In this document: positions 3,661 to 7,318 of the stretch, piece after piece
How positions within the stretch are numbered: position 1 is the stretch's first letter
Layout: every line of letters starts with the position of its first letter
DNA from: JAWOFN01 sp046497505 [NCBI: bacterium]
GTDB lineage: Bacteria; Blakebacterota; Blakebacteria; Blakebacterales
Reading direction: 5' to 3'
Assembly (NCBI GenBank): GCA_046497505.1
Contig: JAWOFN010000100.1
Coordinates: 1-7,979 of the forward strand
Length of the DNA: 7,979 nt
The notes under the pieces: model-generated
Databases searched by the model: none
Told to the model about the DNA's origin: nothing
The model's input: the letters and a program-made list of their open reading frames with translations, nothing else
Translations under genes and position numbers: made by a program

Positions 3661-5139
3661 ATGCACGACGCGATCATGGCGATGGCAGGAGCGGGGGCGC
3701 TGGCCCTGGTGGTCTCGGCCGCCGAGGGGGCCAGGCGCCTGCTGGACGCCCCGGGGACCCTCACACGGCGATCGGTCCACCTGGCAGCAGGTGTGCTGGG
3801 CGCCCTGGTGCCGTGGCTCTTCCGATCGCGGTGGTGGCCGGCCGGGGGGGCGGCGGCCGCGGTGCTCGCCCTCTATCCCAGCGTCCGGAGGGGATGGCTC
3901 CCCGCCCTCCACGCCGCGCGCCCCCGCTCCCTGGGCACCGTCTGGTTCGCCGTTTCCGCACTGCTCCTCTATCTGGTCGCCTGGGAACAGCCGGTCCTGG
4001 TGTGCCTGCCCCTGCTGGTGCTGGCCTTCGGGGACGTGGCGGGCTCGGTGGTGGGGAGCCGGATGGGGACCGCCCGTCCCCTCCCCGAACCCTTCCGGCG
4101 CCGGACCTGGGACGGCTCCTTCGCCGTCTTCGTCATGACGGGGCTGGTCGTGACGGTGGGGTGGGAGGCGCTGGGGCTCGGGGGACCGCTGAGCGCGGTG
4201 CTCGTGGGACTGGCGGTCGCCCCGATGGTCACCGCCGCGGAGGCGCTCTCCGGGGAGGGACTGGACAACCTGACCATCCCGCTCGCCGCGGGCCTGACCC
4301 TGCAGATCGTGCTCTCCGACCCGGCCGGCCAGCCGGGGGCGCTCCTGGCCGGTGAGGCCCTCGGGCTGGCCGTGGCCGGGGCGGCCTGGCGCTGGAGGGT
4401 GCTGGATGCCGGCGGGGCCGCCGGCGCATTCCTCATCGCCGGGTTCGTCCTCGGGGGCGGGGGATGGCCATGGGCCCTGCCGCTGGCAGCGTTCTTCCTC
4501 CTCTCGAGCGCCCTCTCCCTGCTCCGGGACCGCCTGCGTCCCGGCACGGCGGCCCTGGCGGAGAAGGGTTCCCGCAGGGACATCGGCCAGGTGGCGGCGA
4601 ACGGCGGGGTGCCCGGCCTCCTGTTCGCCGCCGGCGTCGCCGGTCTGCCCGCGGTTTGGATATGGCCTGCTTTCCTCGGTTCGGTCGCCGCGGCTGCGGC
4701 GGACACCTGGGGGACGGAGATCGGGACGATGGCCGGGCCGCGCGCCCGCCTCATCACGACCGGGGAGCGCGTTCCCGCGGGTACGAGCGGGGGCGTGACC
4801 TTAGCGGGCACCCTCGGCGGCATCGCGGGGGCTGCGGTCGTGGCGGGTGTGGGACTGCTGCTCCCTCCGGGGGGGACAGGAGCGGCCGGATGGGCAGCGG
4901 GGGCCGCTGCAGCCGGGGGGGTGGCGGGTACCATGGCGGACAGTCTTCTGGGGGCCACGCTCCAGGGACGCTACCGATGCACCGTGTGCGGGACGGTCAC
5001 CGAGCGGCGGAGGCACTGCCCCGGGGGTCCGGTCGAGCGGGTCCGGGGCCTGGCGGGACTCACGAACGACGGGGTGAACCTGGCGGCCGGGGCGGTGGGG
5101 GCGGGGACCGCGCTCCTCATCCTGCTCCTGGCGGGCTGA
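3661..5139 (+). CDS. Fused membrane protein: phytol/dolichol-kinase-like module plus DUF92 (VTE6-like) module
   Basis: A 492-residue polytopic membrane protein with two recognisable halves. Residues 1 to about 225 resemble the CTP-dependent polyprenol kinase family (VTE5/SEC59, related to CDP-diglyceride synthases): RRSVHLAAG (36-44), FGDVAGSVVGSRMG (123-136), RRTWDGS (147-153) and AEALSGEGLDNLTIP (193-207). Residues from about 248 form a complete DUF92 domain: DAGGAAGAF (249-257), RRDIGQVAANGG (305-316), ADTWGTEIG (347-355), GTSGGVTLAG (374-383), MADSLLGA (425-432), a C-x2-C-x9-C cluster at C440, C443 and C453, and LTNDGVNL (467-474). In plants VTE5 makes phytyl phosphate and the DUF92 protein VTE6 phosphorylates it to the diphosphate. 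The fusion therefore suggests a two-step salvage kinase for an isoprenoid alcohol; this is inference. GGGAG (3652-3656) precedes the ATG by four bases. The substrate is unknown. Confidence 0.85.
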   Translation: MHDAIMAMAGAGALALVVSAAEGARRLLDAPGTLTRRSVHLAAGVLGALVPWLFRSRWWPAGGAAAAVLALYPSVRRGWLPALHAARPRSLGTVWFAVSALLLYLVAWEQPVLVCLPLLVLAFGDVAGSVVGSRMGTARPLPEPFRRRTWDGSFAVFVMTGLVVTVGWEALGLGGPLSAVLVGLAVAPMVTAAEALSGEGLDNLTIPLAAGLTLQIVLSDPAGQPGALLAGEALGLAVAGAAWRWRVLDAGGAAGAFLIAGFVLGGGGWPWALPLAAFFLLSSALSLLRDRLRPGTAALAEKGSRRDIGQVAANGGVPGLLFAAGVAGLPAVWIWPAFLGSVAAAAADTWGTEIGTMAGPRARLITTGERVPAGTSGGVTLAGTLGGIAGAAVVAGVGLLLPPGGTGAAGWAAGAAAAGGVAGTMADSLLGATLQGRYRCTVCGTVTERRRHCPGGPVERVRGLAGLTNDGVNLAAGAVGAGTALLILLLAG

Positions 5140-5353: not shown

Positions 5354-7318
5354 ATGACGATGGCTGAGACGACTGCCACAGAGGAGCGTCTGACCCTCAC
5401 ACTCCCCGACGGGAGTACGCGGGAGGTACCGGCTGGGACCACCGGCCGGGAGGTGGCGGAGTCCATCGGCCCCGGCCTTGCCCGGGCGGCCCTGGCCGCC
5501 GAGATCAACGGGCGCGTGGTGGACCTGGACGCCCCGCTCGAGGAGAGCGGGCCCTTCAGGATCCACACCTTCGATTCGGAGGAGGGGCAGGAGGTGTTCT
5601 GGCACTCCACCGCTCACCTCACCGCCCAGGCCGTGAAACGGCTCTACCCCTCCGCGAAGCTCGCCATCGGTCCTCCGGTGGAGCAGGGATACTACTACGA
5701 CATCGACTTCGGGGAACCGATCTCCAGCGAGGATCTCGAGAAGATCGAGGCGGAGATGGAACGGATCGTCCAGGAGGACCTGGAGATACGGCATTCCACC
5801 CTGCCGCTGGATGAGGCGAAGAGCTTCTTCGAAGAGGCGGGCGAGACCTACAAGGTCCGGATCCTGGAGGACCTGAAAGCGGACGAGGAAGTGGCCCTCA
5901 CGGACGACGAGGAGGTCAGCCTCTACTCCCAGGGGGAGTGGACCGACCTCTGCCGGGGACCGCATGTGCCCTCGACAGGGCGCCTGAAGGCCTTCAAGCT
6001 CACCCGACTCGCCGGAGCGTACTGGCGGGGCGATCCCGAGAACGAGCAGCTGCAGCGGGTCTACGGGATCAGCTTCCCCAGGGCCTCCCAGCTGGAGTCG
6101 TACCTGGAACGGATCGAGGAGGCGAAGAAGCGGGACCATCGGAAGATTGGCAGGGAGATGGACCTCTTCTCCTTCCAGCCCGAGGGTCCGGGGTTCCCCT
6201 TCTGGCACCCCAGCGGTACGATCCTCTTCAACACGGTGAGCGATTACATCCGGGGCAAGCTGACCGAGCGGGGCTATCATGAGATCCGGACCCCCCTGAT
6301 CCTCAGCGAGGAGCTCTGGCACAAGAGCGGGCATTGGGAACACTACCGGGACAACATGTACTTCACCGAGATCGACGAGGACGATTTCGCGGTGAAGCCC
6401 ATGAACTGCCCGGGGGCGTGCCTGATCTATGCCTCCGACCTCCGCTCCTACCGGGACCTCCCCCTCCGCATGGCGGAGATGGGGCTGGTGCACCGGCACG
6501 AGCTGAGCGGGGTGCTCCACGGCCTGACCCGGGTGCGCTCCTTCACCCAGGACGACGCACATCACTACTGCACCCCCGACCAGGTGGAGGCCGAGGCGGC
6601 CACGATCGTCGAGCTGGTCCGGGAGGTGTACGCCGATTTCGGGTTCCAGGACTACCGGGTGGAACTGAGCACCCGCCCCGAGAAGTACGCGGGCACCGTC
6701 GAGATGTGGGACCGCGCCGAAGCGCAGCTCACATCGGTACTGGACGAGAGCGGGCTGGAGTACACCGTGAACGAGGGGGACGGGGCGTTCTACGGCCCCA
6801 AGATCGATTTCCACGTCCGTGACAGCATCGGCCGGTCCTGGCAGCTGGGCACGGTCCAGGTGGACTACTCCATGCCCGAGGCCTTCGATCTGGAGTACGT
6901 GGGCTCGGACGGGGAGCGTCACCGGCCGGTGATGATCCACCGGGCCATCTTCGGATCGGTGGAACGCTTCCTCGGCATCCTCATCGAGCACTATGCCGGG
7001 GACTTCCCCCTTTGGCTCGCACCCCGCCAGGTGGTGGTGATCCCGGTGGGCGAGGGGCACAGACCCTACGCCCGGGACATCGCCGGACGGATGCACGAGG
7101 GGGGGCTTCGCACGGAAGTGGATGACCGGGACGAGAAGGTAGGGTACAAGATACGTGAGGGGGAGACCGGTCGTGTCCCCTTCATGCTGGTGGTAGGGGA
7201 CCGGGAGCAGGAAGCCGGTTCTGTTAGTGTGCGGCGTCGTAAAGAGGGCGATATTGGTACGATGACCGTGGAAGCATTCCTTGAACTCGCCCAGAAGGAG
7301 AGGGACAGCTACTCGTGA
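5354..7318 (+). CDS. thrS: Threonyl-tRNA synthetase
   Basis: A 654-residue class II aminoacyl-tRNA synthetase that charges tRNA-Thr and edits mischarged seryl-tRNA. In order: an N-terminal TGS domain (about 13-72), the editing domain with HSTAH (84-88) and YYYD, the catalytic core with zinc ligands C352 (in MNCPG), H403 (in DDAHHY) and H529 (in IHRAI), and the C-terminal anticodon-binding domain (from about 560). All expected catalytic and zinc residues are present, and the length is close to the E. coli enzyme (642). The start is uncertain between ATG 5354 and ATG 5360; neither has a Shine-Dalgarno sequence, and the open frame continues upstream through the tRNA, which cannot be coding. The short leader leaves no room for an E. 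coli-type operator or a T-box. The stop overlaps the infC start. Confidence 0.97.
   Translation: MTMAETTATEERLTLTLPDGSTREVPAGTTGREVAESIGPGLARAALAAEINGRVVDLDAPLEESGPFRIHTFDSEEGQEVFWHSTAHLTAQAVKRLYPSAKLAIGPPVEQGYYYDIDFGEPISSEDLEKIEAEMERIVQEDLEIRHSTLPLDEAKSFFEEAGETYKVRILEDLKADEEVALTDDEEVSLYSQGEWTDLCRGPHVPSTGRLKAFKLTRLAGAYWRGDPENEQLQRVYGISFPRASQLESYLERIEEAKKRDHRKIGREMDLFSFQPEGPGFPFWHPSGTILFNTVSDYIRGKLTERGYHEIRTPLILSEELWHKSGHWEHYRDNMYFTEIDEDDFAVKPMNCPGACLIYASDLRSYRDLPLRMAEMGLVHRHELSGVLHGLTRVRSFTQDDAHHYCTPDQVEAEAATIVELVREVYADFGFQDYRVELSTRPEKYAGTVEMWDRAEAQLTSVLDESGLEYTVNEGDGAFYGPKIDFHVRDSIGRSWQLGTVQVDYSMPEAFDLEYVGSDGERHRPVMIHRAIFGSVERFLGILIEHYAGDFPLWLAPRQVVVIPVGEGHRPYARDIAGRMHEGGLRTEVDDRDEKVGYKIREGETGRVPFMLVVGDREQEAGSVSVRRRKEGDIGTMTVEAFLELAQKERDSYS

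Follow-up and report, generated by a model that had tools for sequence, protein, structure and literature searches.

The window, that is the whole stretch of 7,979 nucleotides analysed here, encodes on its forward strand at 3661-5139 a membrane protein of two domains, in a reading frame that runs uninterrupted from its ATG start through its stop codon and whose three codon positions have G+C fractions of 0.77, 0.61 and 0.89. An earlier note on this DNA had read the frame as a single polypeptide fusing a kinase-like domain to DUF92, and such a polypeptide is indeed present there. Around it lie two short-chain dehydrogenase ORFs, PTPS, a PCC domain, an acyltransferase, MazG, a tRNA-Val, thrS and infC. 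The 89-aa ORF at 763-1029 on the minus strand holds an internal short-chain dehydrogenase fragment (PF00106, profile positions 51-90 of 195) and resembles a remnant, with a full-length dehydrogenase adjoining it at 41-763 on the same strand; the ThrRS (5354-7318, plus strand) shows 46 to 52 percent identity to near-full-length matches from several phyla, with no clear nearest among them. The features of the two-domain protein are:

3661..5139, +: ORF of the two-domain membrane protein, 492 aa, ATG to stop
3661..4356, +: N-terminal half, residues 1-232, putative Sec59/VTE5-like lipid-alcohol kinase domain (CTP_transf_1 superfamily), from a sub-threshold PF01148 match, alignment to CdsA-type PF01148 proteins and its own structural model
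3766..3780, +: R36-R37-x2-H40, at the position of the PfPolK charged clamp; R36 and H40 in 24/25 aligned fusions
4033..4056, +: D125-x6-G132, aligning with DxxAYxxG of CdsA; D in 24/25, G in 25/25
4102..4119, +: RTWDGS, residues 148-153, a conservatively altered K-S/T-x-E-G motif; G152 in 25/25, position 148 K in 19/25 and R in 3/25
4240..4269, +: E194...D202-N203 motif; 24/25 each
4363..5100, +: DUF92 domain (PF01940), residues 235-480; Pfam E 3.2e-54
4576..4608, +: R306-D-x2-Q310...N314-G-G; R306, Q310 and N314 in 25/25
4702..4725, +: D348-T-W-G-T-E-I-G, candidate metal/nucleotide-site motif; D, T, W and E in 25/25
4780..4791, +: G374-T-S-G377 motif; G374, S376 and G377 in 25/25
4939..4965, +: D427-S-x2-G431-x3-Q435 motif; D427, G431 and Q435 in 25/25
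4978..5019, +: C440-x2-C443-x8-H452-C453, variable Cys/His cluster; 24/45 fusion rows
5065..5079, +: N469-D-x2-N473 motif; N469 and N473 in 25/25

Assignment of the C-terminal half to DUF92 is firm, with residues 235-480 matching PF01940 at 184 bits (cut-off 27.5) over profile positions 3-250 of 251; against the narrow TIGR00297 equivalog the score is 95.8 bits, below the cut-off of 205.85. The motifs D-T-W-x-T-E, G-x-S-G, D-S-x2-G-x3-Q and N-D-x2-N, a set taken from the alignment of fusions, all occur in the window protein and vary little or not at all among 25 fusions. It had also been claimed that both halves keep their hallmark motifs, a C-x2-C-x9-C cluster in DUF92 included. Both active-site signatures are retained, and the cysteines are present in the window protein (C440, C443 and C453), but because Cys/Cys/His/Cys occupies positions 440/443/452/453 in just 24 of 45 fusion rows, the cluster is a variable feature and no hallmark of DUF92.

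Residues 1-225 match PF01148 (CTP_transf_1) at E 0.0019 and 18.5 bits, under the curated cut-off of 24, and the kinase label of the N-terminal half therefore required independent tests. PF01148 is matched at E 0.1 by 5 of 25 fused N-halves and any other family by at most two, and an NCBIfam search of N-halves returned no name common to two of them. A profile built from the 25 fused N-halves finds Chloroflexota proteins of 264-328 residues weakly (E 4e-5 to 4e-4 per whole genome). Seven of these loci that were fetched (L142-L148) are all CdsA-type, each with 172 to 204 bits to PF01148, and in a small ORF set the profile matches them at E 9e-8 to 8e-6. In the profile alignment D125 falls on their DxxAYxxG motif and RTWDG on their KS/KT-x-EG motif, the comparison with CdsA being confined to these two motifs. 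Among six stand-alone N-half homologues, one passes the PF01148 cut-off (27.7 versus 24 bits) and the other five are unmatched at E 0.1. The superfamily pattern of D-x2-A/G...G and K/R-S/T-x-E/D-G is found in full, together with R-K/R-x2-H and E...DN, the window having the conservative variants RTWDG and D-x2-G.

An AlphaFold2 model of the full 492-aa protein has a mean pLDDT of 90.9 and pTM of 0.90, and the N-half modelled alone reaches 92.4 and 0.89. The best solved folds for the N-half model are CdsA (4q2e, Z 8.2, rmsd 4.6, 166 residues aligned; 4q2g, Z 7.7), with unrelated folds scoring up to 7.3; archaeal CarS (5guf) aligns to residues 106-220 of the N-half model at Z 5.6 and to residues 321-490 of the full model at Z 6.4, and for the whole model a membrane pyrophosphatase (Z 7.6) stands level with CdsA (7.4), all in the range of Z 5 to 8 where a common helical arrangement can suffice. 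Foldseek gave no E under 0.001 among matches for the models of the 492-aa protein and the N-half, and a sequence search of solved structures gave nothing credible (best E 0.56, 0.077 and 1.2 for the whole protein and either half). No tandem-duplication signal was found between the halves (hhalign 4 percent, E 0.01; reversed control 17 percent, five shuffled controls at most 0.4). Several indirect lines of evidence, namely the alignment to CdsA-type proteins, the stand-alone homologue above the cut-off and the active-site motifs, agree in suggesting that the N-half belongs, as a Sec59/VTE5-like domain, to the superfamily of CTP-dependent lipid kinases and cytidylyltransferases, and uphold its earlier description as phytol/dolichol-kinase-like; no alternative family, and none of a non-kinase membrane type, was consistently found to fit it better. 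The window protein has the order Sec59-like then DUF92 in one polypeptide, with aspartates in both domains, and these aligned aspartates would be the catalytic ones.

Conservation was scored on key residues, eight in the N-half and twelve in the C-half, which were picked from 25 aligned fusions and read in 45 rows, two of which (L015 and L157) are one protein. The N-half set is intact in 42 of the 45 rows and the C-half set in 45 of 45; within the 20 rows outside the choice of residues the figures are 18 and 20. The window protein carries both sets complete. Divergence of the two halves is parallel across fusions (Spearman 0.68, with 0 of 1000 permutations as high).

Genome and viral contigs gave no match when queried with the protein alone, with part of its sequence or with an initial alignment of two rows; an alignment-guided genome scan found 203 relatives, of which 80 loci were kept. 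Both halves lie in one ORF in 25 of these 80 public loci (one of the 25, L007, ends at a contig edge), and the fusion is therefore no assembly accident. Fusion loci are titled Calditrichota, KSB1, Neomarinimicrobiota, Bacteroidota and Rhodothermales, Ignavibacteriaceae, Polyangia, one Deltaproteobacteria and one Bacillota MAG, and G004, titled Deltaproteobacteria, sits in the Calditrichota genome group. A single match extends across the two halves in 21 of 40 Calditrichota genomes (in G440 with one internal stop codon), in at least 76 of 198 Bacteroidota genomes (in G546 with one internal stop codon) and in at least 2 of 140 Myxococcota genomes; the latter two counts are lower bounds because those searches scored the best candidates per genome only, and the Bacteroidota count comes from the matches listed. 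Nine Calditrichota genomes have a best C-half match that lacks the N-half: six of them have an N-half match elsewhere (in G426 as pieces only), and one of the nine, G437, has a fusion with a damaged N-half (L150). Among Gemmatimonadota the query matched in 155 of 249 genomes, mostly as DUF92 alone among the matches listed. A candidate adjacent pair of separate genes in the Myxococcota genome G684 was rejected: the locus (L149, 1571-3036, plus strand) has its kinase and DUF92 halves in different overlapping frames, as an interrupted or frame-shifted fusion or through an assembly error.

Across Chloroflexota the halves are separate genes. A stand-alone N-half occurs at E below 1e-30 in 15 of 151 genomes, and DUF92 is found in 14 of these 15 versus 41 of the 136 others (Fisher p 2e-6, uncorrected for kinship); when weaker N-half matches (E 1.7e-24 to 4.1e-9) are included, DUF92 occurs in 26 of 34 genomes versus 29 of 117, again uncorrected for kinship. 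Of the 55 Chloroflexota genomes with DUF92, 29 gave no match to the N-half at an E of 1e-8 or lower. Twelve stand-alone N-half loci (L125-L136) match the N-half profile at E 5.1e-45 or better, and the two genes are non-adjacent in the seven genomes that carry both on one contig (G015, G271, G312, G378, G384, G400 and G408). On a plasmid of Thermomicrobium roseum (NC_011961.1; L001, 2122-3234, plus strand) the DUF92 gene consists of two consecutive same-frame ORFs split by a stop codon, and it is absent from the PLSDB gene table.

The survey of fused and separate forms that the earlier note had proposed has thus returned fused forms in Calditrichota, Bacteroidota and Myxococcota and separate, co-occurring forms in Chloroflexota, and the suspicion that similar fusions exist elsewhere was right, since they are widespread in bacteria and also in print (PMC5898192, in the passages drawn on here). 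The fusion architecture is common in some bacterial phyla. That the two presumed steps are linked is supported by the recurrence of the fusion across several phyla, together with co-occurrence where the genes are separate; the commonness of stand-alone DUF92 with no detected N-half counts against a strict coupling.

Mapped onto a tree of 102 DUF92 domains, the fused state takes 8 changes to explain (against a mean of 24 with shuffled labels), of which strongly supported branches force only 2. A single origin, with 26 fused C-halves in one clade (L113 and five cut-off rows excluded), was rejected on a quick tree (p-AU 0.0009). The pattern points to fusion on more than one occasion, to its reversal or to its transfer. 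The C-half of the window protein lies outside the main fused group; placed closest to it, without strong support, are a Polyangia fusion and two rows classed as stand-alone, one of which, L043, ends at a contig edge. The longest branch of the tree (1.9) belongs to L113 (774-2390, plus strand, in a Gemmatimonadota genome), a divergent fusion with an FDTTATEVG-type DUF92 half.

Some proteins of this architecture have one half decayed. Eight in Gemmatimonadota combine a kinase domain of the N-half type (matching at E 7e-42 or lower) with a second half that lacks the ADTW motif:

L106, 883..2328, +: decayed-DUF92 protein
L107, 1001..2491, -: decayed-DUF92 protein
L108, 1283..2680, +: decayed-DUF92 protein
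L109, 1093..2571, -: decayed-DUF92 protein
L110, 1146..2558, +: decayed-DUF92 protein
L111, 1377..2771, +: decayed-DUF92 protein
L112, 1640..3103, -: decayed-DUF92 protein
L114, 996..2375, -: decayed-DUF92 protein

Seven of the eight were scanned with Pfam and none has a DUF92 match; as a group, the eight second halves retain similarity to DUF92 along some 100 columns (hhalign 96.5 percent with E 9e-10, against 0.1 percent for a reversed control). PF01940 has no match in six of these eight genomes and a separate one in two. The mirror case, a Bacteroidota protein (L015, 9908-11389, plus strand, which is also L157, 6276-7757, minus strand), has an N-half that has lost R36, H40, D125, E194, D202 and N203 and a DUF92 half with all twelve key residues intact; L168 is without R36 and H40. 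Since fusions with one decayed half occur in both directions, the two steps are not always coupled.

Gene neighbourhoods were compared across 45 fusion loci with a crude choice of ORFs, which overlooked the fusion gene in 4 of the 45, and showed lineage synteny only. Annotation covered the 21 neighbour clusters that recur in at least 4 of the 45 loci, nine of them through representatives scanned with Pfam and the others by eye. No prenyl pathway (phytol, quinone or carotenoid metabolism) is indicated by the neighbours in the window or by those compared across the 45 loci. In 11 Bacteroidota-type loci (L022, L024, L029, L041, L047, L049, L152-L154, L161 and L166) the fusion gene has a gene for a sodium:dicarboxylate symporter (PF00375 in L154) as its direct neighbour, with no functional link evident.

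Judged by its sequence, the window protein is probably a bifunctional integral-membrane kinase for prenol salvage that takes a prenol to its diphosphate. The N-half, of Sec59/VTE5 type, would transfer phosphate from CTP to a free prenol, and the DUF92 half, of VTE6 type, would phosphorylate the resulting prenyl monophosphate to a prenyl diphosphate usable by isoprenoid pathways; we infer both activities, the CTP donor and a hand-over of the monophosphate between the fused domains. As to the substrate, our guess is a C15-C20 prenol, whether farnesol, geranylgeraniol or scavenged phytol. Passages of PMC9782597, PMC10849223 and PMC13415981 present VTE5, FOLK and VTE6 as kinases of prenols and prenyl phosphates that prefer CTP, geranylgeraniol and its phosphate being accepted also by VTE5 and VTE6.

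Both halves could instead be lipid kinases acting on a long polyprenol of the undecaprenol or dolichol type, or on a diacylglycerol-like lipid, which we regard as unlikely. A plsC-type acyltransferase does lie near in the window, but we know of no role of DUF92 on diacylglycerol phosphate, which counts against that lipid, and no gene for either kind of substrate was recognised among the 21 recurrent neighbour clusters. Dolichol kinase falls within the superfamily of the N-half, and the sole conserved archaeal gene context reported for DUF92, in the passages cited from PMC5898192, is uppS, whose product makes long-chain polyprenyl diphosphate; both would suit a long polyprenol. Less probable again is a DUF92 half that acts as a cytidylyltransferase, making a CDP-lipid with no second kinase step. 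The relation that HHpred finds between DUF92 and pfam01148, in which neither catalytic aspartate is lost (PMC5898192, 2015, in part), would fit such a role, as would the appearance of CarS, a CDP-archaeol synthase, as the listed solved fold over a C-half that was barely probed, but the characterised DUF92 protein VTE6 is a phytyl-phosphate kinase according to passages of PMC9782597 and PMC10849223. It is very improbable that one half alone is active while the other serves it in a structural or regulatory capacity: naturally occurring fusions in which one half has decayed (the C-half in eight Gemmatimonadota proteins, the N-half in L015/L157) offer a precedent, against which the window protein has all eight N-half and all twelve C-half key residues.

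Read as a bifunctional prenol kinase, the fusion is a testable single-protein bacterial candidate for both prenol kinase steps, and its distribution over Bacteroidota and Calditrichota hints that prenol salvage could be a more general trait. More tentatively, it is nearly as likely as not that many non-photosynthetic bacteria, these two phyla and others among them, possess a one-protein salvage route from prenol to diphosphate in which the monophosphate is passed between fused sites, the fusion having been made, undone or transferred repeatedly. In the papers searched, no assay of a fused bacterial member and no activity of any fused member came to light.

Among known systems, CdsA (4q2e/4q2g) and CarS (5guf) belong to the same CTP-using intramembrane superfamily, CdsA heading the solved folds for the N-half; they are cytidylyltransferases, not kinases, and the Z scores are only 5 to 8. 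PfPolK of Plasmodium, likewise a membrane protein and a CTP-dependent prenol kinase, has a proposed Arg-Lys-x2-His clamp like R36-R37-x2-H40 of the window protein, but it has a single domain, and only monophosphate products are reported in the passages cited (PMC10849223). Plant VTE5 or FOLK (phytol and farnesol kinase) and VTE6 (phytyl-phosphate kinase, COG1836) represent the same two superfamilies and act sequentially in phytol salvage; they are separate proteins with known substrates, likened here by description, and phytol-phosphate metabolism is listed for COG1836 in part of PMC3223725. The Chloroflexota genes are of the same two families, but unfused. Nearest in architecture is the Mbar_A3310 type (arCOG02245) of Methanosarcina barkeri, which is archaeal, unlike the window protein, and is compared by its published description, not by sequence: in the passages of PMC5898192 drawn on here, such proteins bear an extra N-terminal Sec59-like domain, giving the same domain order with catalytic aspartates kept in both, and the authors consider a kinase step of isoprenoid biosynthesis likely. 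The pairing of these two domains was thus already in print in 2015 and the architecture is not new; to that account, as far as those passages go, the present analysis adds a wide bacterial distribution and variants with one half decayed.
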